Source: a virus
Virus record (IMG/VR): IMGVR_UViG_3300028581_000011
Span: 1 to 64,000 of that record
DNA: 64,000 bases
Strand: one strand, 5' to 3'
Numbering within the stretch: the first letter of the stretch is position 1; every line of letters begins with the position of its first letter. Made by a program: the position numbers and the translations under genes. Below, piece after piece: positions 281 through 63,969 of this stretch. The notes under the pieces were generated by a model. It was given only the letters and a program-made list of their open reading frames with translations, searched no databases and was not told the origin of the DNA.

Positions 281-748
281 CTATCGAATGTCTTCCAGGT
301 CGTACACAAACCACTTGTCGATGCATACGCCACACTTAGCCGCAGAGTCAGCTATGTCCTTCTGCCATGTCGAGCAGCATGTGACAAACGTCTTACCGTA
401 CTTGCGAATCAGGGAATAGTCTGAACCGTACTTAACGCGTTCATCGGCCAGCATGCGCTTCATAGACGCTATCGGATCTTCGTCAAGCGCAACAGCCTCA
501 GGCAACTGTGAGTCGGCTGGTGCGTAGCAAGATATAAACACAACCAGATCGCCATCTTCAAGCTCAAAGTCCCTGGCAACGTCTTGAAACGTCTTATCGA
601 CACCACGGCGTACAGTCACATAGAAGTCAGAGAACTTGTCACTCTCTGATCGAAGCATGTCGAACTTGAATCCGACCGTCGAGATGATATCGGACTTATA
701 GGCATGACAGCCCTTGACACCGTACCAAGCAATTCCGATCCCGGTCAT
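281..748 (-). CDS. Hypothetical protein, 155 aa
   Basis: Unrecognised soluble protein. It has a normal start with GAGGGG just upstream of the ATG at 748. The middle is acidic (FELEDGDLVVFISCY), the C-terminal half has four Cys residues, and no membrane segment is visible. It is the first gene downstream, in transcription order, of the 35-bp repeat array, so the array would form its 5' leader if transcription comes from further right. Confidence 0.75.
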   Translation of the reverse strand: MTGIGIAWYGVKGCHAYKSDIISTVGFKFDMLRSESDKFSDFYVTVRRGVDKTFQDVARDFELEDGDLVVFISCYAPADSQLPEAVALDEDPIASMKRMLADERVKYGSDYSLIRKYGKTFVTCCSTWQKDIADSAAKCGVCIDKWFVYDLEDIR

Positions 749-761
749 TAGTACCCCTCAA

Positions 762-2052
762 TTCTGTTGTCCGAGTGTGTGGTTACTAGCAGTGGTTGAT
801 GTTATCGAGACTGATGGTTACTAGCGCGAAGTGATGTTGTCAGTGCCAATGGTTACTCACGGTGCATGCTGTTGTCTTGTGGTTTGGTTACTCGTTCTGC
901 CTGATGTTGTCTTGTTTTTTGATTACTTGCATCCCATGCAGTTGTCAATGGCTGTGGTTACTCACACTTATTGCTGTTGTCGCCATCAATGATTACTTCC
1001 GATGACTGCGGTTGTCTCAGGTGCTGATTACGCGTGGGGATTCAATTGAGTGGATGTTGTCAGCGCTAAGGATTACTCGACGAGGATGCTGTTGTCTGGG
1101 GGCATGGTTACTCGTGGACGATGCTGTTGTCCGGTAGGTTGATTACTCGTTTGACCTGCTGTTATTGGGTCCAATGATTACTCGCACGGGTTGATGTTAT
1201 CTTTCTTCCTTGGTTACTCGCGGTACTTGAGGTTATCGTCGTCGGTGGTTACTCAACGTCGGTGATGTTATCGACTTGATTGGCTGTTCTGCGTTAGTGC
1301 TGTTATCGGTTGATCTGATTACTCGGACATTGTGATGTTGTCTGGGAGCAGTGGCTACTCTCGGAGGGTGCTGTTGTCTGCGAGCATGATTACTAAACAG
1401 TCGTGCTGTCGTCGCTGGGTTTGATTACTCGCTGTCAATGATGTTGTCTGTGGGGCTGATTACTCGGACATTGTGCTGTTGTCTGGGAGCATGATTACTA
1501 AACAGTCGTGCTGTCGTCGCTTGGCTTGATTACTCTCGGAGCATGATGTTATCGATGCGTTTGGTTACACGAGTGTAATGCTGTTGTCACGGTCTTTGGT
1601 TACTCGGACAGCGTGATGTTGTCTGGAGCAGTGGTTATTTGGCCTGCGTGATGTTGTCTGGACCGATGATTACTCGCCACCAATGCTGTTGTCGTAAGGT
1701 GTGATTACTCGTGGACGGTGATGTTATCCGGTAAAGTGGTTACTTCAGGGGTCTGCTGTTGTCACGGCATTTGGTTACTCAAACTATGTGATGTTATCGT
1801 GGCGTGTGATTACTCAAGTCGCATGCTATTGTCTGAGACTTTGATTACTCCGGGTGCGTGCTGTTGTCTGGGACATTGGTTACTCCGGGTGCGTGCTGTT
1901 GTCTGGGACCTTGATTACTCTCTGAAGATGCTGTTGTCGTATCAACTGGTTACTACAGCGTGGTGATGTTGTCTCGGGCCTTGGTTACTCCTGGCGACTG
2001 ATGTTGTCTTAACGCGTGAGTGCTCAAACCTAATGCAGTTATCATAGTGTGT
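762..2052. repeat. Tandem array of ~36 degenerate 35-bp units with two conserved blocks
   Basis: On the plus strand each unit reads GRTTACTC, 8 variable bases, TGMTGTTRTC, 9 variable bases. Block 1 starts at 781, 816, 851, 886, 921, 956, 991, 1026, 1071, 1106, 1141, 1176, 1212, 1247, 1282 (decayed), 1317, 1353, 1388 and then every 35 bases to 1983, with a decayed unit at 2018. The spacing is 35 except for two 36-base steps and one 45-base step, where exactly 10 bases are added between the blocks. Spacers differ from unit to unit, except for a recent internal duplication of about 70 bases (1388-1423 region and 1493-1528 region). The array fills the whole gap between two minus-strand genes. It is not protein coding, since 35 is not a multiple of three. 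It may be an iteron or partition-type protein-binding array, or a repeat-containing RNA. Confidence 0.95.
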
Positions 2053-2070
2053 GAATGCTTAGGGAAAGTA

Positions 2071-5037
2071 TCAGGCGCTCGGGGCAACGGTTGTTGCCTG
2101 TTGCGATTTAGCTCGAATCTGTGCCAGAGCAGGCTTAAGCTGCTTAAGAATATAGTTCTGCATTGTTTCGCTCTTATTAGCCCGCTGCAGTAACGCCAGG
2201 GTCTTCTCAGGCGTGTAGCCATACTTGGCCATGGATGTCATCAACTCCTTGTATTCCTCTGGTGTGACCTTCAGATCATTCATGAGCCAGGGGAATTGCT
2301 GCTGAGCGGCAATGAATTCAGGCGAACCTACAGCCGCCGCAGGTGCAGCGCTGGGCACCGGACTTTCAGCGCCTGGAACTGGCACAGCTGACGGAGTAGG
2401 CGTCTCTTCACCACCCGCGCTAGCAGGCACAGCAGCTGCCTCAGGCGGTACGGCAGGAGCCTCAGGCTGCTTGCCGCCGAGGTACTGTCCGATTGGGCCG
2501 GGTATGTTGTGGCCAAACAAGCCTAATGCACCAAGGCCGAGGCCGGCTGCCATAGGCAATCCGCCACCTTCGCCTGATGCAGCTTGGTATCCGCCGTACA
2601 GCAACGGCAGTATAGCCATCGTCGTCATCCACTTCTGCTGTGGGGACAAATGGCCATATCCAAGCATCTCGAATATCGGATCGAAAGGCGTTGTCTGTGC
2701 GGGTTGCTCAGGTGTTACCGTGCCCGTCACGTTAGCCTTGGGCAGCTTCTCCAACGGTGCGGCAGGCTCTGGCGATGCAGGCTGCGCTGAAGGCGCATTG
2801 CTGCCAGGTACACCCATATCTGGCATAGGCACCGGAGGAACTGCACCCTTGGGCATAGGCATCTGAGGCATTGGTACTGGCGGTACAGCGCCCTTAGGCC
2901 CAGGGTATTGAGGCATAGGCACTGGCGGCACCTTGCCAGGCGTCATGGGATTTGTCTGGGGGTTAGGCTGCGCTGGAGCTGCAGGCTCAACTCGAAGGGC
3001 GTTGTCTGCTGGAGTACCGGCCTGCTCTTCATGATGTTTGATTATCGCCTGTACCAATTCGTTATTGGGATCTGACGCCATGTCATCAACAAGCTTGTTA
3101 GCGCCTACATCATGCGCCCTGTCGATCAATGCATCGGCTGTGGCTAGACCAGCGCCCATGCTCAATGTCTTGTTGGCCATAGGTCCGACAACAGGCGTTT
3201 GCGGATGCAGGCTCAGAGCCTTCAATCCCTTATCCACTATGCCATTTCTGCTTATGAGCTGCCTGCCCTTACCTGCGCGAAGAGAAGCACGAAGTCCACC
3301 GGCACTTCCACCAACCAATCCGCCGGCAAGAGCCATATCGCTGTCTTCACCTGTTATGGCCTTATTGCCAACGTCATAGGCAAAGCCGGCGCCACTACCA
3401 CGAATTGCACCGCCCAGCGTGTTATCGACTATCGTTCGCGGTACACGCGGCAGGGACTTCGTTATGCCCTTCACAGCGCCATGAGCTGCACCAAGACCGC
3501 CGAGCGTATTGGCAAACGTGCCATCTTCTTTGCCAGTAATCTTGTCTAAGCCGGCACCCAAGGCATAACCACCAGCGCCCTGTGCAACAGGCTTAACGAC
3601 AAGGTTCTTCACAAGGCCGGGTGTTTTATCGGCTACAGACTTGGTTGCTTTGACAGTTGCCGACGGTATGGCTTTAATGGTTCCTTTAACGATATCAGTA
3701 AGGCCGCTGAGCTTGATCAATGGCATGAGATCATCGGCAGACTCAGGCGTGACTCGTATGGCCGTTTCAGCGGCCTTGATGATGTCTGCATTCATGTAGC
3801 CCTTGTCAGTCAGCGTGAACAGGAAACTGAGGGCAAAGTCGGACAGTTCAGCCAGCTTCTCTGTGCTGTCATCGTCCTTGCACACACAAGGCGACAGATT
3901 GCACGTTTCACACAGATTGCGATCAACAGGGATCGTCTTATGTTCACTGGCTTTGGCAAGCATGGCAGAGTTCTCCAAGTCTTTAGGTTTAACGAGCGAC
4001 TTGTACAGTTGGCGGCCTATTTCACCGGCACCTACCAGTGAGCCACCTATTCCAAGCCGTCGAAGACCGCTAGGTAATTTACGAATGAACGGCAGCGGAT
4101 TGAGTCCGGTGAACGTATTGATAGCTGATGGCACCATCTGGATTGCTGTGGGCGCTGCAGCTACAGTCTTAGACAAACCCTTGCGTGCCACAGGGCTAGT
4201 CATGACGTCTGCAAATAGACTCATAAGCTGGCGGCGACTGATCGGCTCGTTGTGGCTGACACTGGCCAGCGTGCTGATCATAGTTGGTGATATACCCTTA
4301 AAGGCCTTGCGACCTATCAAATTCTGTACAGCGCCTATAGCTGCCCTTGGTATGGCTGCTGACTTCTCGGCAGCCCTCACAGGCAATTGATTAGACGCAA
4401 GCAATGTACGCAACACAGCTCTACGCGCCTTTGTAGCCGCAGGATTCATGCCACGATTTATTCGGGTGTTCTGTAGGGCTGTGATCAGAGAACGAAAGCG
4501 TATATTCTGCAAGGCTGATCGTGTGTCTGTACCTCGCTCTTCATCCGATACAGGATCACCGACCTCACCAGTGCCGAAGTATGTGCGACTGCCACGATAC
4601 TTAGCTCGACGTGCATCGTTAGCCTGATTAGTCCATTCGAATGTAACCGGATCAATAGGCAGCAAACGAGGATTGTGCAGCTTGTAGCCTGCCTCTTCTA
4701 TGAACTCACGAGCACCCGCCTGCTCCAACGTCTCACCGTCTTCAACGCCGCCACCAAATGCACCATGGTTCTTGTCCTGATCGTAATAACCGCCAAGAAC
4801 TTTGCCCGCCTGATTAAGGCCGAACATCTCTATTCGATCACGGTACGGACGCGAGTCATCAGCCTTTTTCTTAGCTTTCGGAGACTTGATCTTCTTGATC
4901 ACGTTGGTGTCCTTCTTCGACTTGTCGATAGGCTTGCTAGGCTTGTCGATACGCAGCTTGCCAGGCACGCTGTCCTGCAGCTTACCAATAGGCTGCATGC
5001 CCTGCGTCATCAGCGCTATGAGCTGGCTTAGTGTCAT
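2071..5037 (-). CDS. 988-aa protein with N-terminal Nudix domain and long Pro/Gly/Ala-rich region
   Basis: Residues about 60-180 carry a complete Nudix box at about 96-118 (GGVEDGE, seven residues, REFIEEAGY), matching GX5EX7REUXEEXGU. Nudix enzymes hydrolyse nucleoside diphosphates linked to another group. The remaining ~800 residues are different: a CETCNLSPCVC cluster near 390, several glycine-zipper-like hydrophobic stretches, a repeated PVPMP/KGAVPPVPMP segment and a C-terminal helical region. Length and composition resemble virion or ejected proteins. It is followed on the left by the repeat array. The pairing of a Nudix enzyme with a structural-looking tail is unusual, and substrate and location are unknown. 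Confidence 0.75.
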   Translation of the reverse strand: MTLSQLIALMTQGMQPIGKLQDSVPGKLRIDKPSKPIDKSKKDTNVIKKIKSPKAKKKADDSRPYRDRIEMFGLNQAGKVLGGYYDQDKNHGAFGGGVEDGETLEQAGAREFIEEAGYKLHNPRLLPIDPVTFEWTNQANDARRAKYRGSRTYFGTGEVGDPVSDEERGTDTRSALQNIRFRSLITALQNTRINRGMNPAATKARRAVLRTLLASNQLPVRAAEKSAAIPRAAIGAVQNLIGRKAFKGISPTMISTLASVSHNEPISRRQLMSLFADVMTSPVARKGLSKTVAAAPTAIQMVPSAINTFTGLNPLPFIRKLPSGLRRLGIGGSLVGAGEIGRQLYKSLVKPKDLENSAMLAKASEHKTIPVDRNLCETCNLSPCVCKDDDSTEKLAELSDFALSFLFTLTDKGYMNADIIKAAETAIRVTPESADDLMPLIKLSGLTDIVKGTIKAIPSATVKATKSVADKTPGLVKNLVVKPVAQGAGGYALGAGLDKITGKEDGTFANTLGGLGAAHGAVKGITKSLPRVPRTIVDNTLGGAIRGSGAGFAYDVGNKAITGEDSDMALAGGLVGGSAGGLRASLRAGKGRQLISRNGIVDKGLKALSLHPQTPVVGPMANKTLSMGAGLATADALIDRAHDVGANKLVDDMASDPNNELVQAIIKHHEEQAGTPADNALRVEPAAPAQPNPQTNPMTPGKVPPVPMPQYPGPKGAVPPVPMPQMPMPKGAVPPVPMPDMGVPGSNAPSAQPASPEPAAPLEKLPKANVTGTVTPEQPAQTTPFDPIFEMLGYGHLSPQQKWMTTMAILPLLYGGYQAASGEGGGLPMAAGLGLGALGLFGHNIPGPIGQYLGGKQPEAPAVPPEAAAVPASAGGEETPTPSAVPVPGAESPVPSAAPAAAVGSPEFIAAQQQFPWLMNDLKVTPEEYKELMTSMAKYGYTPEKTLALLQRANKSETMQNYILKQLKPALAQIRAKSQQATTVAPSA

Positions 5038-5066
5038 GCTACTTGCCTTCTAGCACCCGTCACGCG

Positions 5067-5102
5067 AATGTGGTTGAGGACCCGCATATGCGGCCTCACA
5101 TT
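5067..5102 (-). other. Intercistronic hairpin
   Basis: AATGTG (5067-5072) pairs with CACATT (5097-5102), with further pairing AGG/CCT and the self-complementary CCGCATATGCGG inside. It overlaps the 3' end of the methyltransferase gene and lies before the start at 5037. There is no T tract, so it is more likely an mRNA processing or stability element than a terminator. Confidence 0.4.
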
Positions 5103-5797
5103 GTCACTACTACTTCCCATTGAGCTACCACATCGGGGTTCAAGTCGCGGATCGGTTTAGGCCCGAGCTTCTCATCGTACTTGACAGTGTCTACTGGGGA
5201 ATCAATGGGTACCACACACGGGTCATCGGTGGACCGTACACAGCGGCCAGCCAGGAGCTTCATCGCAATCGACGAGCGTCCAACGCCACTCTTGTACTCG
5301 TTGATGACTTGCACCACGTCTGAGACGAGCACGTGGCATTTGTGTCCGTGCCATACGGACCAAGAGAATCGCAGGCCCATGGCCCTGAGAACACCCTCGC
5401 CGGTGTCCTTGTCCTGCTCGAAGCTGGGCATTCTGATCCACACGCCCTTCCTGGCCTTGCGAAGCATGACCTGAATCACCGCGCTAACCCATTCCATGTT
5501 GGGCAGGTGCTCCAAGAAGTCCCAGGCCAGATAGTAATCCGCCTCGGGCAGCTCTTCCAAAGCACCGTCTGCCGTGAGATCCAAGCACCGAAAGCGCAAC
5601 CTACGAGACTCAAGATCCGCTCGAAAGCGTTCCTGTATGTCGATTCCCAGGCACTCGGCCGGGTCGATGCTGCGTACAAGCGGTCCGTAGTACATCGACC
5701 CGCGACGGATGAACTCAGTAATGCCGTTGCCCAGTTTGCATCCCAGTTCAACCACCTTCAGCGTCGTTTCCGTCATTGATTGCTGTGCATATGCCAT
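5096..5797 (-). CDS. Class I SAM-dependent methyltransferase
   Basis: A 233-aa Rossmann-fold methyltransferase. Visible motifs are VVELGCKLGNGI (SAM-binding motif I, residues about 15-26), CLGIDI (acidic end of strand 2), LDLTADGAL, and YYLAWDFLEHLPN (motif IV region with an LEHL helix typical of Methyltransf_11/23-like enzymes). The target cannot be told from sequence; small molecules, sugars or proteins are possible. The start at 5797 has GGAGG seven bases upstream, overlapping the stop codon of the preceding gene. It lies between two structural-looking genes, so it may modify a virion component. Confidence 0.8.
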   Translation of the reverse strand: MAYAQQSMTETTLKVVELGCKLGNGITEFIRRGSMYYGPLVRSIDPAECLGIDIQERFRADLESRRLRFRCLDLTADGALEELPEADYYLAWDFLEHLPNMEWVSAVIQVMLRKARKGVWIRMPSFEQDKDTGEGVLRAMGLRFSWSVWHGHKCHVLVSDVVQVINEYKSGVGRSSIAMKLLAGRCVRSTDDPCVVPIDSPVDTVKYDEKLGPKPIRDLNPDVVAQWEVVVTM

Positions 5798-5799
5798 CG

Positions 5800-7674
5800 T
5801 CAGCCTCCGTTGACCAGCCTTGCATATGCGCAGCAGAACTTCATCGAGGCCTGCTTGTCGTCCAGCCCCAGCGTCTTGACCTTCTTCTTAGGCCGCATGG
5901 CTTTGTACGCACCAATGCCGCCAAGACCAACCAAGCTAGCTGCACCAAGCCCTGTAGGCCACGGATACTTCTTAGCGAAGTCCATAGGTGCCTTAGTGAA
6001 CTCACCCCAGCTTGCGCCAGGATTCTCAGCCAGCTCACTGAACTGTGATACAGGGGCCTTACGCCACTCTGCCAACAATTCGTCGTACGCCGTCTGATCC
6101 TTAGCGCCAGCCAGCGTAGATTGCAGTATCGACTGCGGTGTAATAGGCCGCTGACTAACAGCCGTCGTGAACTCGGGGCTATGCTCAAACACAGGCTTAA
6201 CCGGTGCAAGCATATTGCGGATTTCTTCCAAGCTAGGCAATGCACTTTTGACTGCAGCAGTCTTCTTCTTTGCCTTGGGCTTTGCCTTGGACTTGGCTTT
6301 TTCCTTTGCTACCTCGTCCGCTTCGAATTCGTCTGTAAGCCGCCACGACTCAAACTCATCTGCCGGTGTAGCAGGATCGGCAGCATCAGAGTCCGTATAA
6401 CGTGATGGATTCATATCCCGTAGCGCCATGGAGGCAAGCATCGAACGCAGATAAGGGTTGTTCACCTTTGTCGGAGCATAACTACGATCTATCGCCCGTC
6501 CAACAGTGGCATAGTCACGTGCCGGAGATGAGAACAATCGCGTTAGCATTCGCGGCTCTTTTGTACGTGCTGCATCCAGAAAGATCTGCCCCAAACCGCC
6601 GGCAGAGTCATGAATGTTGGATGCAATGGGCACAGGCTTGGCGAGATCCTTCCAGAATATACCGGCCGCTTTCTCTTTAGACTCTTCAGACTCGTCAGGC
6701 GTCATATAGAGGCCACCTAGATAACCACCAAGACCACCCAATGCACCGCCAAGAGCACCGGCATGCGGATTGTCATTGGCAGCCAGACCCAGGTTGCTAC
6801 CGACATTAAATCCAAGGCCAGCCAGCAATCCACGAATGGAACCCTTACGCCCATTCGCCAATGCACCAACGCCTGCACCGATCATAGGCGCAGCCGCCAT
6901 GCTACCGGCAGCACCAGCCGGGCCTGAATGCAACAATGCATCATTAGCACTTACAGCCTCGTTGCCGAGTGTGCCTATCAATGCGCCCAATGCACCACCG
7001 CCAATCGAAGCGCGTTTGCACGATACAGCAGCACGTTTTCCTAGCGATGATACCTTCATAGTATCTTCCTGCGTTTTTTGGGTTTTCGACTTCCTGTTCT
7101 TACCCGGTTTATCTGGCTTAACACCAGCAGGCGGACGCTTGTAACTATCCGTGGCCATACCTGCCAATGAAGCGGGCGTTAAACCAACGGAGACGCATGT
7201 AGAGGCCACCTTAGGCCCTGCAGGCGTAATTGGGCGCTTAAGTCCCTGAGAGCCCTGTGAGGGCCCACCGGGCCAACCTGGAATTCCTGTAGGCTGACTA
7301 TGCACTTCAGGCATCATATTGATATCCGGCACCTGTTCAGTAACCGGACCTTGCCCAGGAGCATACGTAACACTGCCCTGTGAGTTAGGCATGAATCCCT
7401 TCGTCGGTGCCTGCGGAGGCATAGGTGCGGGTGCAGCCTGCGGAGGTGGAGCCTGAGGAGCTTGCTGTGGTTGAGGAGCAGCTGGCTGAGGAGTAATCGT
7501 CCTCTGCTGCTGTATAGCCGCTGCCTCCTGCACACCCTGTGTCGTAGCTGCACCACCAGGACCACCAGGACCAGATGTAGCGGCAGCATTAACACCCATA
7601 GCCGTAGCCGTAGGCGTTGCAGGCCTAAGAGTCATATTCTGCATAGCTGGTTGCGTGCCAGGTGCAAGTGACAT
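5800..7674 (-). CDS. 624-aa Pro/Gln/Ala-rich probable virion protein with glycine-zipper segments
   Basis: The N-terminal 150 residues are rich in Pro, Gln and Ala, followed by a basic linker. Residues about 215-330 hold Gly/Ala-rich hydrophobic stretches (for example GALGGALGGLGGYLGG) of the glycine-zipper type, seen in membrane-inserting ejected proteins. A Lys-rich AKPKAKKK segment follows. A possible membrane helix (TGLGAASLVGLGGIGAY) sits near the C-terminus before a basic tail. No catalytic motif is seen. The start at 7674 is preceded by GGGAG. It is one of three long low-complexity neighbours; a role in the virion or genome delivery is inferred from composition only. Confidence 0.7.
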   Translation of the reverse strand: MSLAPGTQPAMQNMTLRPATPTATAMGVNAAATSGPGGPGGAATTQGVQEAAAIQQQRTITPQPAAPQPQQAPQAPPPQAAPAPMPPQAPTKGFMPNSQGSVTYAPGQGPVTEQVPDINMMPEVHSQPTGIPGWPGGPSQGSQGLKRPITPAGPKVASTCVSVGLTPASLAGMATDSYKRPPAGVKPDKPGKNRKSKTQKTQEDTMKVSSLGKRAAVSCKRASIGGGALGALIGTLGNEAVSANDALLHSGPAGAAGSMAAAPMIGAGVGALANGRKGSIRGLLAGLGFNVGSNLGLAANDNPHAGALGGALGGLGGYLGGLYMTPDESEESKEKAAGIFWKDLAKPVPIASNIHDSAGGLGQIFLDAARTKEPRMLTRLFSSPARDYATVGRAIDRSYAPTKVNNPYLRSMLASMALRDMNPSRYTDSDAADPATPADEFESWRLTDEFEADEVAKEKAKSKAKPKAKKKTAAVKSALPSLEEIRNMLAPVKPVFEHSPEFTTAVSQRPITPQSILQSTLAGAKDQTAYDELLAEWRKAPVSQFSELAENPGASWGEFTKAPMDFAKKYPWPTGLGAASLVGLGGIGAYKAMRPKKKVKTLGLDDKQASMKFCCAYARLVNGG

Positions 7675-7715
7675 AAGACAATGCTCCCTTCCTGGGAAGA
7701 AAAGACGTATAGATG

Positions 7716-10025
7716 TTACTTGCTGCCAGTGCAGTAAGCACGCACACCAACCTTAGCCAAGCGAATGGAAAGCTCAGCCTGTTGAGAAGCTGTCTTCTCT
7801 GGGTACGTTAGACCTACAGCCGTACGTACGTCGTTCAGATCATGTATGCGCTGTGCAAGCTTTACGAGTGTGACAAAAGCCTGCTGCTTCCTGTACGGCC
7901 ATGCACGCTTGATAATAGTCTCTGCCAATGCGTGCAAGATGGCCGTCTTCTCTGCGGACAAGTGCATACCGTACTTACGACGTGACTGTATGAAACGACG
8001 AATCGGGCCATTGCCATTAAATATGCGGCGACGGCCATAGGACGCAGGATAACCACTCGCAGGCGTAGCAGGAGCCTGTACGGGTTCCTCTATCGTGTCC
8101 TTTATGTTGGCCATAGCCGATGCAGGAGCCGCGTCATCCATAGTGAAATTGGCTGCAGGATGCTCAGGTGCAGCTGCAAGCATATTGCCACCGTTAGGCG
8201 CAGGTGCTGATGCAGGAGATGGAGGAGCCATCATAGAAGCTGCACCTATGCCAAGCCTAGAAGCCAGCGATCCGCCATAAAGCGATCCAGCAGGTGCGGC
8301 AGCATTCGCAGCAGCCATACCTTCTATGGGCGCAGATGCACCAATAGAGATAGGCGGCTTGGGAACACTGGCACTCATAGAGGCCATACCAGGTATAGGC
8401 GCAGATGCACCAACAGACAAAGGCTCAGGAGTCGGCGCAGGAGCCTGCGGTGCAGCCATAGGCCTGGGCGCATACATAGGAGCCTGCCTACGGAAACCAA
8501 AACGAGCGCTAGTCTTCATCGATAACGGTTTCGCAGGCTTGGGTAGGCTAGATGCAGTTACAGGAGAAGGCTTAGGCTTGTATCCACCCTGCCACATATT
8601 CGTCGGGAAATCCGGTGCCGCCATGGGCTTCGGTGCCGAAGGTGTTACAGAGATCGAACGCTTAGGCGCTTGCGCAACAGGTGCAGGTGCAGGAGGAGGC
8701 TTAGGTACAGATCCGTACGTATCGACATTAGCACTAGGTAGCGGTGTAGACGCTCCTGGGGCCAGCCTAGCACCAGGAACCGTAGGAGCAGGAGCAGCCG
8801 GTTGAGTCGCTTGAGGTGCCGGTGCTGGAGGTTTCGGTAACGGCGGCGGCGCTGGAGGCGGCACAGTGTCTTTCACATTAGCCATTGCTACAGGAGCAGG
8901 TGCAGCCTGCGGAACAGGCCTTTGTACATAAGTGCTGCCCATCTGATTACGTGCATTGTTGCCCGTGACGTTAATGGCCGCAGCCGTACCAAGACCAGCC
9001 ACATCAGGCATAGGGCCAGCTGTGGGCATAGGATTGGCAGCAGCTATATCCGCAGGTATCGGAATAGCTCCAGGTCCGTTGTACGAAGGCATACCAGGAG
9101 CTGTGCCAGACATGACAGTAGACTGACGAGGACGGTACGCAGGGCCACCAGCATTAGCAATGGCCCGTGTTTCACTCTGTAGCTGCCTGAACGCTGGGTC
9201 AGACTGCAAACGACCTCTCGTAGCTGCGTGCAAACCATTGGCAGACGAGTCCACAGACGGCGGTGGGCCAGAGAATGTCTTCTGAGCAATAGGTGACTCT
9301 TGACCACCCATAGCACCACCAAGATCGGCTGTAGACTTAGCCTGTGCATACTCGCGTGTAGCTGCACGATCAGCCTGCAGCTGCTGTATCTGCTCCGGTG
9401 TGAAGCGATCACTCACATTGCCGCCATAACGCTTCAATGCCTCAGGGCTGGCATTACGAAGCGTACTGCGCATGTAACGACGCTCACGAGCAGCCATCTC
9501 TTCACCACGATTGCCAAGACGACCCCAGTTGGCCGGCAAAGGCTCTGCTTGTCCCTTAGCCTGAACAGGCGCAGGTGCAGGGGCAGGCTCAGGTGTCGGC
9601 TCAGGAACAGGATCTTTGATGTTGGCTACGGCCGGTGCAGGAGTTGGCTCAGGCGCAGGTGCCGGAACCGGAGGAGGCGGCGGTGTAGACACGGGCTGCC
9701 ATGACGGCGTGCCAAAAAAGGCCGAGGCCGCAGATTGGCCAAGCATTGCGTCGGATAAGCCACGATCTGTATTGCCAGAAGAGCTTAGTCCAAATAGCGG
9801 TACGCCGTTGGCAGGACCGACAGTGAACTCAGGCGCAGGATTGGCTCGCCTGGCATCCAGCTGCGGTGTATTGCCGCGTGCAGGTCCTGGCTGAGTCAAA
9901 GGCGTGTACGGCCGATTGGTAGACAGCGAGTTAGCAATGCTGTCCAATGCCGATGAGGTTGCCTTTGAGCTATCGGGCAGCGAGGCAGCGAGCTGACCTA
10001 GATCCGACACGTTGACAATTGGCAT
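7716..10025 (-). CDS. 769-aa Pro/Ala-rich repeat protein, probable virion component
   Basis: The frame extends upstream to 10079, but the ATG at 10025 (MPIVNVSDLGQ) is preferred: it follows the stop of the ribbon-helix-helix gene directly and has GGAG in its leader. The protein is dominated by Pro/Ala repeats. A motif ANIKDP/ANVKDT/ANIKDT followed by a Pro-rich run occurs three times, and S-V/I-GASAPI-x-GMA occurs at least twice. The last ~120 residues are helical and basic, with a Cys near the end. It is unrecognised. Composition and neighbours suggest an elongated virion or host-interaction protein. Confidence 0.75.
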   Translation of the reverse strand: MPIVNVSDLGQLAASLPDSSKATSSALDSIANSLSTNRPYTPLTQPGPARGNTPQLDARRANPAPEFTVGPANGVPLFGLSSSGNTDRGLSDAMLGQSAASAFFGTPSWQPVSTPPPPPVPAPAPEPTPAPAVANIKDPVPEPTPEPAPAPAPVQAKGQAEPLPANWGRLGNRGEEMAARERRYMRSTLRNASPEALKRYGGNVSDRFTPEQIQQLQADRAATREYAQAKSTADLGGAMGGQESPIAQKTFSGPPPSVDSSANGLHAATRGRLQSDPAFRQLQSETRAIANAGGPAYRPRQSTVMSGTAPGMPSYNGPGAIPIPADIAAANPMPTAGPMPDVAGLGTAAAINVTGNNARNQMGSTYVQRPVPQAAPAPVAMANVKDTVPPPAPPPLPKPPAPAPQATQPAAPAPTVPGARLAPGASTPLPSANVDTYGSVPKPPPAPAPVAQAPKRSISVTPSAPKPMAAPDFPTNMWQGGYKPKPSPVTASSLPKPAKPLSMKTSARFGFRRQAPMYAPRPMAAPQAPAPTPEPLSVGASAPIPGMASMSASVPKPPISIGASAPIEGMAAANAAAPAGSLYGGSLASRLGIGAASMMAPPSPASAPAPNGGNMLAAAPEHPAANFTMDDAAPASAMANIKDTIEEPVQAPATPASGYPASYGRRRIFNGNGPIRRFIQSRRKYGMHLSAEKTAILHALAETIIKRAWPYRKQQAFVTLVKLAQRIHDLNDVRTAVGLTYPEKTASQQAELSIRLAKVGVRAYCTGSK

Positions 10026-10027
10026 TA

Positions 10028-10294
10028 CTAAGCTCCTACGGGATCCGTCCCCGAAATGTTGTTCAACAGAGCAACGCACAGCTGATTAAGGCTTGTGCGC
10101 CGTTTGTGCGATTCGTCCTTGAGCGCCTGATGCAATGCGGCAGGTATACGCAATGATACCGGCCGCATGTCCATGGTCTGTAATTGACCAAAGTCGACAA
10201 GCTGCCGAGTGGACTGTAGTTCGTAGAGTTCGTTTATGGCGTTGGCAATCTCTTGCAGACGCCCTTCCGTGTCGTCGGAACGGAATACAAACAT
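10028..10294 (-). CDS. Ribbon-helix-helix DNA-binding protein, 88 aa
   Basis: Residues about 46-80 (MRPVSLRIPAALHQALKDE, then HKRRTSLNQLCVALLNN) match the ribbon-helix-helix fold of HicB C-terminal or Arc-like regulators: a short beta strand with alternating polar residues, then two helices with the SLNQ turn. The N-terminal half is a predicted coiled helix that could add oligomer contacts. It likely acts as a dimeric transcriptional regulator. A TATAAT box and a 15-bp inverted repeat flank its start, suggesting autoregulation. It lies directly before the 769-aa gene. Confidence 0.75.
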   Translation of the reverse strand: MFVFRSDDTEGRLQEIANAINELYELQSTRQLVDFGQLQTMDMRPVSLRIPAALHQALKDESHKRRTSLNQLCVALLNNISGTDPVGA

Positions 10295-10361
10295 TGTTGC
10301 TGTTTCCCTGTGGATTCCGTTACTGCGCTAGCTAGTTTTCATTATACGGAAGGGCGTCTGC
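10255..10361. promoter_or_regulatory. Promoter -10 box with 15-bp inverted repeat around the RHH gene start
   Basis: On the minus strand TATAAT lies at 10346-10341, 47 bases before the ATG at 10294. No good -35 box is seen. A perfect 15-bp inverted repeat has arms GCAGACGCCCTTCCG at 10255-10269 and its complement at 10347-10361. The upstream arm abuts the -10 box and the other lies inside codons 9-13 of the gene. It could be a paired operator for the RHH protein, or a hairpin in read-through mRNA that hides the start. Confidence 0.55.
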
Positions 10362-10385
10362 ATTACCTAGGCGGCTAGATAACGG

Positions 10386-10988
10386 CTACCATGACGACGA
10401 AGGCGTAGAGCCTGGCGGCGGGTCAGCTCGGATGACATCAGGCGAGTCGTTAGCAGGCGTATCAGATACAGCCACCCAATGAAATAGGTCGTCTGATGCG
10501 TTTTCCTCTTCATCCTCTGACTCGTCCTCTGGCTCGTCCTCTGGCTCATACTCTGACTCTTCGTCATTAGACTCGTATTCATCTTCATCTTCATCTTCTT
10601 CTTCGTCGTCATCATCACGGTAGCCATCAAGCTCAGATTCTTCTTCATCGTCCAACCGCAGCTGATCGTAGTAGCCGTAGTTGAACGAGAAATATATGAG
10701 CCTAATGCCTACAGCATAAAAGCCTAACAATATTCGCTGTAGCGCTGGACTGAAGCCGGCAGCAGTAAGCATGGCTACTGACATGCTTCGACCAGAAGCC
10801 ATATCGATCAGTACGACCATGTCAGACGTGAAAGCTACGCTGAAACCAGGTGCGCTATAGCCTAGTGTTGCTCGAGCAGATAAACGCCTACGGTCCTCAG
10901 ACGTTATATGGTCGAAATGCACAAAGGCCAGCTTGCTTGACTCATTAGCTATGAACCGACAAAAGTCTTCAGGAAGATCAAAGGCCAT
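10386..10988 (-). CDS. Hypothetical protein with acidic C-terminal region, 200 aa
   Basis: The start at 10988 (MAFDLPEDF) has AGGAG ten bases upstream and overlaps the previous gene by 11 bases; the frame is open further, to 11015. Residues 1-115 are a globular, partly hydrophobic domain. Residues about 117-170 are almost only Asp, Glu, Ser and Tyr; the last 30 are Pro/Ser-rich. No family is recognised. Long acidic tails recur in several proteins of this window. Confidence 0.7.
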   Translation of the reverse strand: MAFDLPEDFCRFIANESSKLAFVHFDHITSEDRRRLSARATLGYSAPGFSVAFTSDMVVLIDMASGRSMSVAMLTAAGFSPALQRILLGFYAVGIRLIYFSFNYGYYDQLRLDDEEESELDGYRDDDDEEEDEDEDEYESNDEESEYEPEDEPEDESEDEEENASDDLFHWVAVSDTPANDSPDVIRADPPPGSTPSSSW

Positions 10989-11565
10989 CAGTCTCGTGCT
11001 CCTGCTGCAGTTCACGCTGTATAGAGGCTATGGGTCCTTTGCCCATAGCAACAGCCTGCTCGTCCCTGAGCCTGTTGAATCCCATCTGACGAACAAGATC
11101 CATTAGGCCTTCCGTGGCAAACTTGATCTGTGTGCACAAGAAGCCTTCAGTCAGCCGCTCTTCAGGCTTGAACTTCGTGCTCGTTTGCACCTGCCAAGCC
11201 TTCTCACCAGCGTAGCCCGCCGTTACGGCTACGTGTAGAAACATTGGTGTTTCTTTCACAGGCGGCTGCGCAGAACGGCTGATGCTATCCCAAAAGCTGA
11301 GCAGCATTGCAAACGCATCGTAGTTGTCGCTGAATATAGCCTGTAGATATGCGCACTCGTCCGCGCCCAAAGCCAGGCCCTCTGGCGGATCTCTGGAAAG
11401 CAAAGCAAGACTGACACCTGGCTGATCATGCGCCAGGCACCAACGAAGGAAGCGTTTGACCTCGACCGATTTGACCTGCTCGCTGTCCAACGACATTGCA
11501 GCGGTGTACTCGCGAAACAGGTACTTCAAGACTTCGATGATAAGACGTGCGTCAATTTTGGCCAT
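10978..11565 (-). CDS. Hypothetical protein, 195 aa
   Basis: Unrecognised helical protein beginning MAKIDARLIIEVLKYLF. It is the first gene after a terminator and one of the recurring TAATTAGCGCTAATTA palindromes, which lies 18 bases upstream of the start, so it probably begins a transcription unit. No membrane segment or catalytic motif is visible. Confidence 0.75.
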   Translation of the reverse strand: MAKIDARLIIEVLKYLFREYTAAMSLDSEQVKSVEVKRFLRWCLAHDQPGVSLALLSRDPPEGLALGADECAYLQAIFSDNYDAFAMLLSFWDSISRSAQPPVKETPMFLHVAVTAGYAGEKAWQVQTSTKFKPEERLTEGFLCTQIKFATEGLMDLVRQMGFNRLRDEQAVAMGKGPIASIQRELQQEHETDGL

Positions 11566-11582
11566 CCGGCACCTGTGAGATG

Positions 11583-11598
11583 TAATTAGCGCTAATTA
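11583..11598. promoter_or_regulatory. Palindrome copy 1 (TAATTAGCGCTAATTA)
   Basis: Perfect 16-bp palindrome between the terminator at 11611-11634 and the start codon at 11565, 18 bases from the ATG. The same spacing is found at copy 3. On the minus strand it is flanked by GAATT on the left and CATC on the right. Confidence 0.85.
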
Positions 11599-11610
11599 AA
11601 TTCACCAATG

Positions 11611-11634
11611 AAAAAGGGCCACCTGAGTGGCCCT
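11611..11634 (-). terminator. Rho-independent terminator
   Basis: AGGGCCAC and GTGGCCCT form an 8-bp perfect stem with a 4-base loop. On the minus strand it is followed by TTTTT. It ends the transcript of the gene at 11657-11959. Confidence 0.85.
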
Positions 11635-11656
11635 ATCGTCCGCAAACTGTTACTGG

Positions 11657-11959
11657 CTAACCGCTTACGCGAACTTCGCCAGCGGGCGGCAAACCACCGG
11701 TCACAGACGGAATACGCCCAGTGACCGCGCAAACGCCGCTAACAGGCGCACTGACGCCCTGAACAGGTGCCAATGCAAACTGCTGACCGTTTGCCAGCTG
11801 AATCGTGTAGTTGCCAGTGCCTGGCCCGTAGGAAAGACCCACAGGACGAACCCTGGACAGATACGCGTCAGCGCCGCTACAAAAGCTGCGCACATCCGCC
11901 GGGATGTCGCCGTTCGGATATAGCAGATTGCACAAAAACTCTGTAAAGCACTTCTGCAT
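11657..11959 (-). CDS. Hypothetical small protein, 100 aa
   Basis: The ATG at 11959 is chosen because AAGGAG lies seven bases upstream; a GTG two codons earlier overlaps that SD. The sequence has three Cys in the N-terminal third, then a Gly/Pro/Val-rich beta-type region (PGTGNYTIQLANGQQFALAP). No family is recognised. It is the last gene before a terminator. Confidence 0.65.
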   Translation of the reverse strand: MQKCFTEFLCNLLYPNGDIPADVRSFCSGADAYLSRVRPVGLSYGPGTGNYTIQLANGQQFALAPVQGVSAPVSGVCAVTGRIPSVTGGLPPAGEVRVSG

Positions 11960-11982
11960 GATCACTCCTTCAGAATGACTTG

Positions 11983-12552
11983 TTACTGTTTGTAGATCTT
12001 CGGCTCAACGGCAGCACCGGCTAAGCCATTGATGTCGTTCTTCACTGCTGATCGCAAGTCGTTGAGTTCGCGTATACGCATAGACGTACGAATGTACTCT
12101 AACGATTGCTGCATTGTGAACTGATCAGGATCGTACGTGTACTTGCGTATCTTTGTCTCTAAGACCCACAACTCCAAATGGATCTTGTCCAACTTATTTA
12201 TCGGCTCGGCCAGCTTGGCATGAGTGCGCAACAAGAAATTGACGTTACTGCCATTTTCCTTATAGTCTAGCCACGTCTGCATATCAAAGGCCTTGAGTAG
12301 GCTACAACTGCAGTTGTTCGCCAGCTCGGATACGGCTGCGTACTTTGACGACAGCTCGTCATCGCTCAGGCTGAGAAGCTTAAGCCGCAATATGATCCAG
12401 CGATCAATCATCTCAGCAAGAGTCACCGTCATCTTGCCCGAAGCAGGAAGCTTAGGTGGCTCCGTGGACTTAACACGCAGAACTGCTGACCTTTCTCGGA
12501 CAGAAAAGGTCTTCCACGCATCGCGCAAGATAGTGGCAAAACGCCCGCTCAT
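11983..12552 (-). CDS. Hypothetical protein, 189 aa
   Basis: The start at 12552 (MSGRFATILRDAWKTF) overlaps the upstream stop as ATGA, which is why it is preferred over the longer frame to 12585. The protein is mostly helical, with many Leu, Lys and Glu residues in heptad-like spacing near the C-terminus. No motif is recognised. Confidence 0.7.
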   Translation of the reverse strand: MSGRFATILRDAWKTFSVRERSAVLRVKSTEPPKLPASGKMTVTLAEMIDRWIILRLKLLSLSDDELSSKYAAVSELANNCSCSLLKAFDMQTWLDYKENGSNVNFLLRTHAKLAEPINKLDKIHLELWVLETKIRKYTYDPDQFTMQQSLEYIRTSMRIRELNDLRSAVKNDINGLAGAAVEPKIYKQ

Positions 12553-12722
12553 GTCTTCGGCTTCCTTTTCTGACCGTACAGCCATGGCGGCTGCGAATTG
12601 GTTGGTTTGTCCGTCAGCGCTTTATTGACTTCATCGCGGTGCTCCTGTGTAGCTACGGGTAGTAACGAGGTACGTCTGGCCACTCTCTTAGCGGCCTGTT
12701 CGCCTAGATCTTTCGAGTCCAT
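12549..12722 (-). CDS. Hypothetical small basic protein, 57 aa
   Basis: A short ORF of 57 codons starting MDSKDLGEQAAKRVARR and ending in a Lys/Arg-rich tail. It overlaps the glycosyltransferase gene upstream by 19 bases and the next gene by ATGA, so it fits the translationally coupled chain exactly. Function is unknown. Confidence 0.6.
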   Translation of the reverse strand: MDSKDLGEQAAKRVARRTSLLPVATQEHRDEVNKALTDKPTNSQPPWLYGQKRKPKT

Positions 12723-13765
12723 ACGTTGTCTCCTATGGCTTCTTCCAGTCTAGGCGAGATCAGCGACGACAGCAATTCACGCGATTCCGATTGCTTACTA
12801 AGCAGTTTGCTGCGTACTTCTGCTGCCATAGCCCTGAGCCTGGAAAACCTTGCACGAATGTGGAACATGCCGTGAACTATCTCACGTAACACATCCAGGT
12901 TCGGGCTCATGCTGTGTATGTCGGGCCACAGCACAGTAGTTTCGCCTTTCAGCAGCACCTCAGGAATGTCCGCATACAGCTCAGCAGTCTGTACACAGTT
13001 AGGTGCAATCACAGGCGTACCGCTAAGCAGCATCTCTGTTAAGTACAGCTGCAGGGACGATACACCGGCATAATAGATGGCCTGATGTGAAAGATACAAG
13101 TCGTGCCTTACATCTTCAGACGGGCCAGAGACTATAGTCACCCTGTCTCCATACTGATTCAGTTGAGGACAACGCAATCGTTTGGAGCTGTATTCATCCA
13201 GCCACAACGTGACACGAATAGGTTCGTCGTCTAGCAGCATGGAGATGACATTGAAGATGGTTGAAGCCTGTGTGCGCATGGTATACGAATCGGCATACAC
13301 CAGTATGCTAGGCTCCGACGCCATGTTCGCTGTGGCTACATCAGGAATCCACTGTAGCACAATGGGATTGAACATCGGGCTTTCACGCAGAAACTCAGCA
13401 GCAGTTGCCGAGCTGCCGCATAGTATACCCGTGCAGAAGCGTAGGAACTCCCAATGCCTATCTTTCATCCTGTCTGGCGTGAATATGGCGAATTCTCGTT
13501 GCCATGGCTCAGCCTTCAGTTCCTTGTACAGATCAGTAACACCTGTGAAGATCACCTGTTGTTCTTTGTGCCACTTCTTCAGTGTGTCTAGCTGATCGCC
13601 ATAGTTCACGCGTACGTCCCACACCGAGTATGAGTTTCGTCGTGACGGCGTTGGTGACATCCAGCTCACTTCGTGTCCAATAGTCACCAGATAGTCTGCA
13701 ACCGACTGCAGCCAACTTCTTGTCTCTGTACTGCTGTAGTCAGCCAAGATGCCAACCTGACTCAT
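12704..13765 (-). CDS. Probable GT-B-type glycosyltransferase, 353 aa
   Basis: The start at 13765 (MSQVGILADY) overlaps the preceding stop as ATGA. It has two Rossmann-like halves: the first contains VGILADYSSTETRSWLQSVA and the second SILVYADSYTMRTQ. Near residue 265 a late motif (LYLTEMLLSGTPVIAPNC) is typical of GT4-like GT-B enzymes, where E-G-S/T-P-V binds the sugar nucleotide. It would transfer a sugar from an activated donor. It sits in a three-gene glycosyltransferase run next to the portal gene. Confidence 0.65.
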   Translation of the reverse strand: MSQVGILADYSSTETRSWLQSVADYLVTIGHEVSWMSPTPSRRNSYSVWDVRVNYGDQLDTLKKWHKEQQVIFTGVTDLYKELKAEPWQREFAIFTPDRMKDRHWEFLRFCTGILCGSSATAAEFLRESPMFNPIVLQWIPDVATANMASEPSILVYADSYTMRTQASTIFNVISMLLDDEPIRVTLWLDEYSSKRLRCPQLNQYGDRVTIVSGPSEDVRHDLYLSHQAIYYAGVSSLQLYLTEMLLSGTPVIAPNCVQTAELYADIPEVLLKGETTVLWPDIHSMSPNLDVLREIVHGMFHIRARFSRLRAMAAEVRSKLLSKQSESRELLSSLISPRLEEAIGDNVWTRKI

Positions 13766-14418
13766 CTGTGCGCTCTCCCTTGGAAGTAAGGACAATGCAA
13801 ACGATCCTGTGAAAATGTCGTGTAGTGCATTCCTTGCCTCCACACACAGTAATCAAAGCTGAGCTGGTCCCTGACACTGTTGTTAGACAACTCATGCCAC
13901 CACAGCTCATTGAACACACGCACTTGGTCTGAATGTCGTCTAATCAATGCACAAGTCTCAGCCAGACCGTTGTTGGCAGGATAGCCTTCCTGCTTGTATC
14001 CGAAGATCTGACGCTGCATAACAACAGGGTCATCTTTCTTCAGACGCAGACATGCGGATAGTTCTTCGTACACGCAGCTACGTTGACGATGCTTGAACAC
14101 GGCAATATCTGTGCTTGTCAGATAGCGCTGCACAAGCTGTTCTGGATCACACAACGGTGTGAAGTTGCCATCCACCCATAGCGTGTAATCGGCAGATGGA
14201 AACACAACATGAGACAGCAACTTGTGCTGTCTGGCCTTACGCTGGGCATTCACATGGCTGAATACAGAAGGCAGAATCTCCCAGCCAGATAGTCGTTGTG
14301 GCGTCTTCACATCCATGAAGGCAACACAACGAGTACCGGGTGAGACAGTGGGCAGATACAGATGATCTTTAGCCACCATTGGGCCGAAGATTGCTGTGTA
14401 GACTACGGTACCGGACAT
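13762..14418 (-). CDS. TOD1/MUCI70 (DUF616)-like glycosyltransferase, 218 aa
   Basis: VVYTAIFGPMVAKDHLYLP at the start, then TRCVAFMDV and YTLWVDGNF near residue 80 match the DUF616 family: a GT-A-like fold with an aspartate-based donor site (W-DGN). The FGYKQEGYPANNGLAE and SFDYCVWRQG segments fit the later part of the family. It overlaps both neighbours. Acceptor and sugar are unknown. Confidence 0.65.
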   Translation of the reverse strand: MSGTVVYTAIFGPMVAKDHLYLPTVSPGTRCVAFMDVKTPQRLSGWEILPSVFSHVNAQRKARQHKLLSHVVFPSADYTLWVDGNFTPLCDPEQLVQRYLTSTDIAVFKHRQRSCVYEELSACLRLKKDDPVVMQRQIFGYKQEGYPANNGLAETCALIRRHSDQVRVFNELWWHELSNNSVRDQLSFDYCVWRQGMHYTTFSQDRLHCPYFQGRAHR

Positions 14419-50014: not shown

Positions 50015-50419
50015 CTAAACCGAACAATGTTCCAACAACATCAGCACACGCCGCAGCTTAGCAGACAATATCTCATGCTGTCTGCCCAACGTTATAGCCT
50101 CGTGCAATAACGGCAGAGCTGCAGCTATGGCTTCGGAGGCGCTCATCTTCGAGGCAGCATCGTCCTCGATCTGTCTACGAATGCCTTTTCGCTGTAACGC
50201 GTGCAAGATCTGAGACAACGCACGATCACCGAAACCGTAGATGCCTCGCAAGTCTTCTCGCTTGCGTTCTAGCAGCTGTCGCACAGTTGTGATGCCGTGC
50301 TTCTCCAAACAATTGACGTAGCGCAGATCTATCTCAAGGCTGGCTACGCCGGCCTCTAACAACGCTTCGACGTTGTCCGTCTGATCGCTGTAGTAGTAGG
50401 GGCTGTCAGTATTCGACAC
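50015..50419 (-). CDS. RNA polymerase alpha-CTD-like protein, 134 aa
   Basis: A GTG at 50419 preceded by AGGAG is taken as start; an ATG frame to 50485 would run through the palindrome. Residues about 27-80 (SLEIDLRYVNCLEKHGITTV, RQLLERKREDLRGIYGFGDR, ALSQILHALQRKGI) match the C-terminal domain of bacterial RpoA, including the helix-hairpin-helix FG-(K/R) turn that contacts UP-element DNA and activators. The C-terminal 50 residues are helical. It could redirect host transcription. The palindrome 32 bases upstream may be its own control site. Confidence 0.7.
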   Translation of the reverse strand: MSNTDSPYYYSDQTDNVEALLEAGVASLEIDLRYVNCLEKHGITTVRQLLERKREDLRGIYGFGDRALSQILHALQRKGIRRQIEDDAASKMSASEAIAAALPLLHEAITLGRQHEILSAKLRRVLMLLEHCSV

Positions 50420-50450
50420 GCTTTTCTCCTGTTCAATAACTAGTCGAATG

Positions 50451-50466
50451 TAATTAGCGCTAATTA
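50451..50466. promoter_or_regulatory. Palindrome copy 4
   Basis: TAATTAGCGCTAATTA between the zinc-protein gene (its TAG stop is inside the palindrome) and the alpha-CTD-like gene starting at 50419. Confidence 0.85.
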
Positions 50467-51356
50467 CGTCCGCCACGTAACACACCGTACAACGATAACA
50501 GACGCACAGGTTTCGATCTACCGGATGATCCTTTCACATGCAACGAGTTCAGCCAAGTGACAATAGGGCCTGGTGGACCGAACATAAGCTGCCGTGGATA
50601 CCGAAGTGTTCTGCCTACAGCGGCAACCAGTGCACGACGACCAACACCAAACTCACGAGAAACAACACGCTCCAGGTCAAAGTCCGATGGGAGTGTGAAT
50701 CGATCGTTACCAGGGATGAGCTTCAGCATACGCGCCTTGACCACCCAATGTTCGGAAAGGCTTTTGCGTACATCTGATGGCTCAACACTCCACAACAATG
50801 AACCACCGAGTCCTGCACGCAGCGATGCCGCATAACTTTCACGCAACACAGAGATTTTGATAGCGATATCTGCTGGAGACAGCTCGATAGGCCAACGATA
50901 CGTGTCGACCAACGTGATTATGTCGGCTATGTTCACCGGCTCACTTGTTCCCGGCGGGGCAGCATAGAACAGATAGCGCTCTATGCGGTCGTATATGTAT
51001 CCGACGTAGTCACGAGCCCAACAGAAAGGACAAATACGGGCCTGTCGACACGTGTAAGTACGACACGGCCAGGTAAGAACACCTGCCGGCGGACAGTTCA
51101 GTGTAAACAGCCAGTTCGATCCCTCTGTGTTGTTCCAGCCTCTGTTACGAAGAAGCCACAAACGAGTACGCCATAGCTCTAGCAAAGCAGGAACACCTGC
51201 AACAAATCGACGGTTGTAACCACCAGAAGCGCCGTCAGTGTCGGTGGTAGTAATCAACGACGATAAGGCGTATCTCTGAGCACGATATCGAGCCCCATTC
51301 AGAAGCCCAGTGACATGAAAACGTAGTCGTTTTTCACTATCGTCAGACACATGCAA
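50460..51356 (-). CDS. 298-aa protein with zinc motif resembling rolling-circle Rep proteins
   Basis: CRTYTCRQARICPFCWARDY around residue 105 resembles the C-x-R-x-CP-C-R segment of Rep_1-type plasmid initiators, but no HUH motif is seen, so the call is weak. WLFTLNCPPAGVL precedes it, and a helical C-terminal half with a possible HTH follows. The ATG at 51356 has no SD. A structured region lies directly upstream. Confidence 0.45.
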   Translation of the reverse strand: MHVSDDSEKRLRFHVTGLLNGARYRAQRYALSSLITTTDTDGASGGYNRRFVAGVPALLELWRTRLWLLRNRGWNNTEGSNWLFTLNCPPAGVLTWPCRTYTCRQARICPFCWARDYVGYIYDRIERYLFYAAPPGTSEPVNIADIITLVDTYRWPIELSPADIAIKISVLRESYAASLRAGLGGSLLWSVEPSDVRKSLSEHWVVKARMLKLIPGNDRFTLPSDFDLERVVSREFGVGRRALVAAVGRTLRYPRQLMFGPPGPIVTWLNSLHVKGSSGRSKPVRLLSLYGVLRGGRN

Positions 51357-53567: not shown

Positions 53568-53608
53568 CAATCACCTCAGGTCAGTTGAGCGCATCGCTGC
53601 GCTGCCTT

Positions 53609-53635
53609 TTAACAGCATCCATTAAGGGCTATACT
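53609..53635 (+). promoter_or_regulatory. Candidate promoter of the terminase gene
   Basis: TTAACA at 53609-53614 and TATACT at 53630-53635 are separated by 15 bases, upstream of AGGAGG and the ATG at 53657. The spacing is slightly short. Confidence 0.4.
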
Positions 53636-53656
53636 GTTGCAGGAGGTACTGACCCA

Positions 53657-63780: not shown

Positions 63781-63969
63781 CTGCGATCTTAGAGTGTCTA
63801 CATGTTTTCGGAGTGGTAGGGACTCCTGTAACACGCAACTCTAAGATCGCAGCCCCGGCTGACACCTTTCAGTGTCATCGGCTGAAAGATGTCAGCGAGG
63901 CAAGATCACGGTGTCGGCGGATACCGTGCGCTAGTTATAGAGGCGCCCAATAGTTATAGAGGCGCCCAA
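63781..63969. other. Hairpin cluster and 19-bp tandem repeat, non-coding
   Basis: A 15-bp perfect inverted repeat (63781-63795 and 63838-63852) encloses GGAGT-GGTAGGG-ACTCC. A second near-perfect 15-bp stem is at 63858-63872 and 63882-63896, and a 6-bp stem at 63907-63912 and 63923-63928. The unit TAGTTATAGAGGCGCCCAA occurs twice in tandem at 63932-63950 and 63951-63969. No ORF is seen up to the window edge. Confidence 0.75.

Follow-up and report, generated by a model that had tools for sequence, protein, structure and literature searches.

The window analysed here (bases 1–64,000 of the 185,248-bp virus record IMGVR_UViG_3300028581_000011) contains, at positions 762–2043, a tandem array of two short alternating sequence blocks, which we tentatively read, with a probability of about 0.4, as an iteron-like series of sites in double-stranded DNA, all in one orientation, serving as a sink or platform for an accessory phage or host protein. 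Binding of a protein to the array DNA is suggested by the conservation of the blocks. The sink or assembly-platform role is the most likely single reading, reached mainly by elimination, and is put forward less firmly than binding itself.

The repeat unit consists of block A (TGRTTACTC, 9 bp), 8 free bases, block B (TGMTGTTRTC, 10 bp), and a further 8 free bases, i.e. 35 bp. In total, 36 A blocks (starting from 780 to 2017) and 37 B blocks (starting from 762 to 2034) alternate in one orientation, each followed by 8 free bases. Thirty-two of the A-to-A steps are 35 bp, two are 36 bp (before 1211 and 1352), and one is 45 bp (unit 1025); the distance between A and B starts is 17 in all units except unit 1025, where it is 27, exactly 10 more. 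Perfect A-N8-B matches number 22, compared with none in 50 whole-genome shuffles, and identity at lag 35 reaches 0.565, whereas the best of 500 shuffles, taken over all lags, gave 0.329. These counts bear out the description, in an earlier note on this DNA, of about 36 two-block units of 35 bp with fixed internal distances. The note had given the A block as GRTTACTC, a word that is indeed present but lacks the leading T of the full block.

The main array, in which 36 A blocks alternate with 36 B blocks, occupies 780–2043 on the plus strand, and both of its edges are decayed. On the left, a first, partly decayed B half-site (TTCTGTTGTC; 762–771, plus strand) directly precedes, when read on the minus strand, the ribosome-binding site and start codon of the gene at 281–748. 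On the right (2017–2060, plus strand), the A block at 2017 (TGAGTGCTC) and TGCAGTTATC are followed by an A-like TGAATGCTT at 2052. Within the array, the unit at 1281–1315 (plus strand) has a degenerate A block (TGGCTGTTC) with its B block and spacing intact, and the unit at 1025–1061 (plus strand) has an A–B spacer of 18 rather than 8 bp. This last insertion had been offered as a sign of helical phasing; it is exactly 10 bp, and the other steps are 35 or 36 bp as claimed, but it is weak evidence for phasing because each block of the unit carries one mismatch (TGATTACGC and GGATGTTGTC), and the unit may, given these mismatches, be decaying.

When up to two mismatches are allowed, A-N8-B occurs at 33 sites in the 185,248-bp record, all of them inside the array and on the plus strand. 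The array is the sole copy in the record, a compact cluster without dispersed sites, and it fills the only gap of at least 450 bp in the genome that is free of ORFs of at least 85 aa. The plus strand of 780–2043 is strongly G+T rich (GC skew, +0.22; AT skew, −0.37), the reverse of what the neighbouring genes show, and the spacers carry the G bias too.

Several other classes of repeat were considered and rejected. A coding reading fails on the 16–31 stop codons present in each of the six frames across the array, which is thus non-coding. The predicted folding of array RNA is no better than that of shuffled sequences for either strand (z = +1.95 for the minus and +1.21 for the plus strand), and about 1,500 pairing tests between variable columns (of a unit with itself, the next unit, and the next but one) gave nothing beyond chance, i.e. 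no covariation. Structured RNA is therefore dismissed, including a ToxI-like antitoxin RNA, which had been raised by the 35-nt period and by the 155-aa ORF that follows. A direct search for the ToxN family, in which even the control genomes gave no match, does not bear on this. Blocks kept by selection at fixed distances between free spacers (see below), along with the stops, folding, and covariation results, favour protein–DNA recognition over coding or RNA pairing, as the earlier note had argued. A CRISPR was rejected on its 8-bp spacers, which drift by point mutation, with no Cas match among the neighbouring ORFs, and a promoter array on the lack of such sites elsewhere in the genome.

Mean identity between units is 0.94 at block positions and 0.287 in the spacers, where 0.268 is expected from composition, so that the spacers do vary freely between fixed blocks, as had been proposed. 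Because this contrast across all units could reflect age alone, recent duplicates were compared. In six recently duplicated unit pairs, 3 of 90 strictly conserved block positions differ, compared with 18 of 96 spacer positions (Fisher's test, p = 0.0009); the pairs were picked for spacer similarity, which makes the test conservative. The two-letter block positions (3, 9, 20, and 25), counted apart, changed in 7 of 24 cases, a rate like that of the spacers. Since the blocks are conserved and the spacers are saturated and drifting even between recent duplicates, these data show that the blocks are under purifying selection. Only three length changes are found in the 36 units, despite spacers saturated with substitutions, so that the spacing is selected as well. 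Homogenization by unequal exchange adds to the kept spacing and partly confounds this observation, and is not a full explanation once the spacers have diverged.

Turnover by duplication is visible at two scales. About two units were recently copied at an offset of 105 bp (1369–1421 and 1474–1526, plus strand), and spacers are shared between units 1316 and 1457 and between units 1387 and 1492. The youngest event is a single-unit duplication at 1842–1911 (plus strand), in which units 1842 and 1877 differ by one spacer base and a G/A change in the A block. The claim of ongoing array growth thus holds; the internal duplication of about 70 bp on which it was based did copy about two units, but its offset is 105 bp, and the younger single-unit copy has to be added to it.

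The centres of the A and B blocks are evenly spaced, 17.5 bp apart in both directions, giving about 73 half-sites over about 1.28 kb. A and B align as direct, not inverted, half-sites if B is allowed one extra base (permutation p = 0.04). The recognized element is most likely A-N8-B, i.e. a pair of similar half-sites in direct orientation whose centres are 17.5 bp apart. Reckoned at 10.5 bp per turn of B-form DNA, the 35-bp unit corresponds to 3.33 turns and the half-site step to 1.67 turns, and the same face recurs every 105 bp. The earlier proposal of a protein bound along one DNA face therefore misfits B-form DNA: successive sites wind round the helix, in register only at 105-bp intervals, a geometry that suits a spiral coat or a wrapped complex better.

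RNA polymerase beta-type subunits are encoded by the phage itself, whose terminase, portal, and polymerase subunits show 25–35% identity to their counterparts in Salmonella phage Arash and Vibrio phages D69, D148, and D181. Also present are a 156-aa protein (50015–50485, minus strand) with a domain like the C-terminal domain of RNA polymerase alpha and, distinct from it, a sigma-like protein (regions 3 and 4). Outside the window, at 138306–144899 of the record (minus strand; L017/L018), a 2,197-aa fused polymerase subunit contains two insertions with intein-like borders (CYSPDTECLT... and CYDDDTEILT...). The alignment of the 1,146-aa large terminase (53585–57025, plus strand) to its relatives is split into two parts by about 500 residues, which suggests an intein or a similar insertion. 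ORFs for adenylosuccinate synthetase, nucleotide-sugar enzymes, and ThiF, PAS, and kinase domains were observed at about 121–185 kb of the record (L016–L019), and a perfect 19-bp tandem duplication (TAGTTATAGAGGCGCCCAA) at 63932–63969.

Relatives were gathered with the polymerase alignment as probe, and several are about 50% identical in the polymerase; viral contigs probed with the terminase gave no match. A collinear core is shared with six long relatives; it begins with the portal gene, continues with the replication, terminase, and structural genes, and ends with the polymerase. The ten ORFs at 281–13843 are all without a counterpart in these six syntenic relatives, as are almost all of those at 158–185 kb. 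By this comparison, the array is located in a strain-specific region outside the core.

A search for the blocks in related phages, which had been suggested as a check, was run on 57 related records with up to three mismatches, and the motif was absent from them beyond the level of a reversed-pattern control. In the 16 phages read at length, the only non-coding block-periodic array to be found was a genuine CRISPR, carried by one relative. The array had no blastn match in phage and plasmid records, and pattern scans of viral contigs and bacterial genomes returned isolated single matches only and no second array. Three Intrasporangium genomes (L210, L212, and L213) each contain one exact A-N8-B match, as single sites without an array. 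Two candidate arrays in the relatives were rejected: 66-bp repeats in G001 and G002 were read as coding repeats from their 22-codon period and position, and a 73-bp non-coding array in G024 (IMGVR_UViG_3300026538_000054, L281) is a CRISPR and not a homologue. This CRISPR, at 27.0–28.3 kb, has a repeat of about 37 bp (GTGACAAAGCCCTGTGCAGCGGGCTCAAAGCTGCGAC) and spacers of about 36–38 bp, and adjoins, near the portal gene, the gene for a 628-aa protein that matches Cas12u1/Cas12f profiles (L281:4949–6835, plus strand; E = 5e-75).

The array lies directly 5′ of the gene at 281–748 in its direction of transcription. This minus-strand gene, whose start is 14 bp from the array, encodes a 155-aa protein without a detectable homologue: no match was found in Pfam, NCBIfam, or PADLOC, and an AlphaFold model (pLDDT 36) was uninformative. 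On the other side, the stop codon of a 988-aa ORF (2071–5037, minus strand) adjoins the right edge of the array; its product is a NUDIX domain fused to a long Gly/Ala/Pro-rich protein without relatives. No relatives were found with the proteins of 281–748, 2071–5037, and 7716–10079 as probes, and P0001 and P0003 had no match in phage and plasmid records. The ribbon-helix-helix (RHH)-like protein at 10028–10294, which had been named as a possible binder, has only a sub-threshold match to HicB, and nothing ties it to the array. No candidate binder is encoded beside the array.

Among the alternatives, a replication origin, at which an initiator, either the phage's own or a hijacked one, would bind the units as iterons and open the DNA nearby, is unlikely. 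The array has the anatomy generally known for iterons (direct repeats, conserved blocks, and fixed spacing), and it is the only large ORF-free gap in the genome. However, the replication genes lie at 36.7–48 kb, at least 34 kb away, no Rep or DnaA-type initiator was recognized by family among the scanned ORFs, and no AT-rich unwinding region was seen alongside (GC content of 0.48 in the array and of 0.50 and 0.54 in its flanks). An origin is also a core function, whereas the region is strain-specific, and both the motif and any comparable non-coding array are missing from relatives that share the order of the core genes.

A centromere-like or nucleoid-anchoring site for plasmid-like maintenance of a prophage, comparable with F sopC, pSM19035 parS, or the R388 stbDRs, is likewise improbable. 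The compactness and strain specificity of the array suit such a site, as does its likeness to sopC (PMC6238139) and to the stbDRs, which work without a motor (PMC3098194). Against it, ParA (PF13614), ParB_N (PF02195), and tubulin (PF00091) were not found in the record by searches that matched in control genomes, and lysogeny genes were not seen among the families found. The search for a ParM/StbA_N partner, in which even the control genomes gave no match, has no bearing on this.

Improbable to much the same degree is an RNA sponge, i.e. an unstructured minus-strand transcript (GAYAACAKCA N8 GAGTAAYCA N8) that would soak up a host RNA-binding protein or nuclease. Its purpose would be comparable to that of the pseudo-ToxI repeats of phage PhiTE, and the 35-nt period is near the 36-nt ToxI unit (PMC3475682). 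The neighbouring genes are all on the minus strand, so that the array may be transcribed; if it is co-transcribed with them, it would form an unstructured, CA-rich RNA 5′ of a gene, and the minus-strand RNA folds slightly less than its shuffles. However, single-stranded RNA would not need strict spacing, the array has neither a pseudoknot nor covariation and its spacers drift freely, whereas ToxI units must fold, and the downstream 155-aa ORF matches none of the families in the three databases searched.

The position of the array, upstream of the gene at 281–748 and 14 bp short of its start codon, would also suit an operator or enhancer array for this gene and those after it. We consider this very unlikely, since 36 sites over 1.3 kb are far above known phage operators and no minus-strand sigma-70-like promoter was found in the array with a simple consensus. 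That the array marks a packaging start or a terminus for the large terminase is still more doubtful. The array lies 0.8–2.0 kb from one contig end, but both ends cut ORFs, a search for end repeats found none, and the relatives are circularly permuted, with contigs that break elsewhere in the core, so this end is probably an assembly break; moreover, the terminase gene is 52 kb away and the relatives have no such array. Functionless neutral satellite DNA generated by unequal exchange is hardly credible: the turnover in copy number (105-bp and 35-bp duplications) is clear, but neutral drift is expected to act alike on blocks and spacers, and this reading is contradicted by blocks that are kept against saturated spacers even in recent duplicates.

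Origin, partition, and packaging had all been listed as candidates in the earlier note, and each is weakened. A core origin or packaging site is disfavoured because the array is strain-specific, absent from syntenic relatives, and distant from the corresponding genes, and active partition because ParA, ParB, and tubulin were not found; a sink or platform is thus left as the likeliest single role, with an origin, an anchoring site, and an unstructured RNA sponge as its serious competitors. In the mechanism proposed, a sequence-specific protein would coat or wrap the lattice of about 1.28 kb as a spiral nucleoprotein structure and not along one face. The array would then serve to concentrate or titrate an accessory phage protein or a host DNA-binding protein, as a sink of high capacity or an assembly platform, and its role would not be that of a core origin, centromere, or packaging site. 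A more specific version, in which a spiral filament on the approximately 73 half-sites (17.5-bp lattice, 1.3 kb) sequesters or redirects a host chromatin, replication, or defence protein, and in which the array was acquired by one lineage within a group of large phages with RNA polymerase subunits of their own, is speculative and, as a whole, rather unlikely.

Phages have yielded few documented examples of long DNA-binding arrays that selection maintains and that are neither origins nor centromeres. Should a host protein be titrated here, the array would represent a counter-measure made of DNA and not of protein, and would itself be a ready bait for identifying the titrated protein. If it is instead an origin or a centromere, it would provide the first such handle for this group of large phages, which are only distantly related to Arash and D69.

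Among known systems, the iterons found at plasmid and phage origins (lambda ori, RK2, and P1 oriR/incA, for instance) form arrays of about 4–20 units. The array shares with them oriented direct repeats, conserved blocks, and a fixed spacing that is near but not equal to whole helical turns, and differs in its 36 units, its two alternating half-site words, and its 17.5-bp lattice, as well as in having no adjacent initiator gene or AT-rich region and no conservation in relatives. CRISPR arrays contain acquired spacers of about 25–45 bp and are accompanied by Cas genes. The CRISPR of G024 resembles the array in that repeats alternate with unlike spacers in a strain-specific region, whereas the array has 8-bp spacers, point-mutation drift between duplicates, and no Cas genes seen alongside. 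The sopC site (parS-F) of the F plasmid consists of twelve 43-bp tandem repeats (PMC6238139) and is similarly a compact cluster on a large replicon; its units hold inverted repeats for dimeric ParB, unlike the direct blocks of the array, for which ParA and ParB were not found. In R388, the stbDRs are 9-bp direct repeats with 2-bp gaps, arranged in two sets of five upstream of stbABC and bound by StbA without the need for a motor (PMC3098194). Both they and the array are short direct repeats upstream of a gene, but the stbDRs have another word and spacing and far fewer units. The parS of pSM19035 is also an array of many short sites, in this case heptads for a small RHH ParB (PMC9499535), which are contiguous and of mixed orientation, whereas the array has 8-bp free spacers and a single orientation. 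ToxI and the pseudo-ToxI of PhiTE are 35–36-nt tandem repeats upstream of an ORF of 150–170 aa, and the number of phage repeats changes (PMC3475682, PMC8860590); the 35-nt period and the 155-aa ORF directly downstream of the array are alike, whereas the array has no pseudoknot or covariation, its spacers drift freely, and its ORF matches no family. Iteron-like arrays as such are known; a 36-unit, two-word lattice of 17.5 bp that lies in a large phage's variable region, with no partner gene recognized next to it, is at the least a new form of them.
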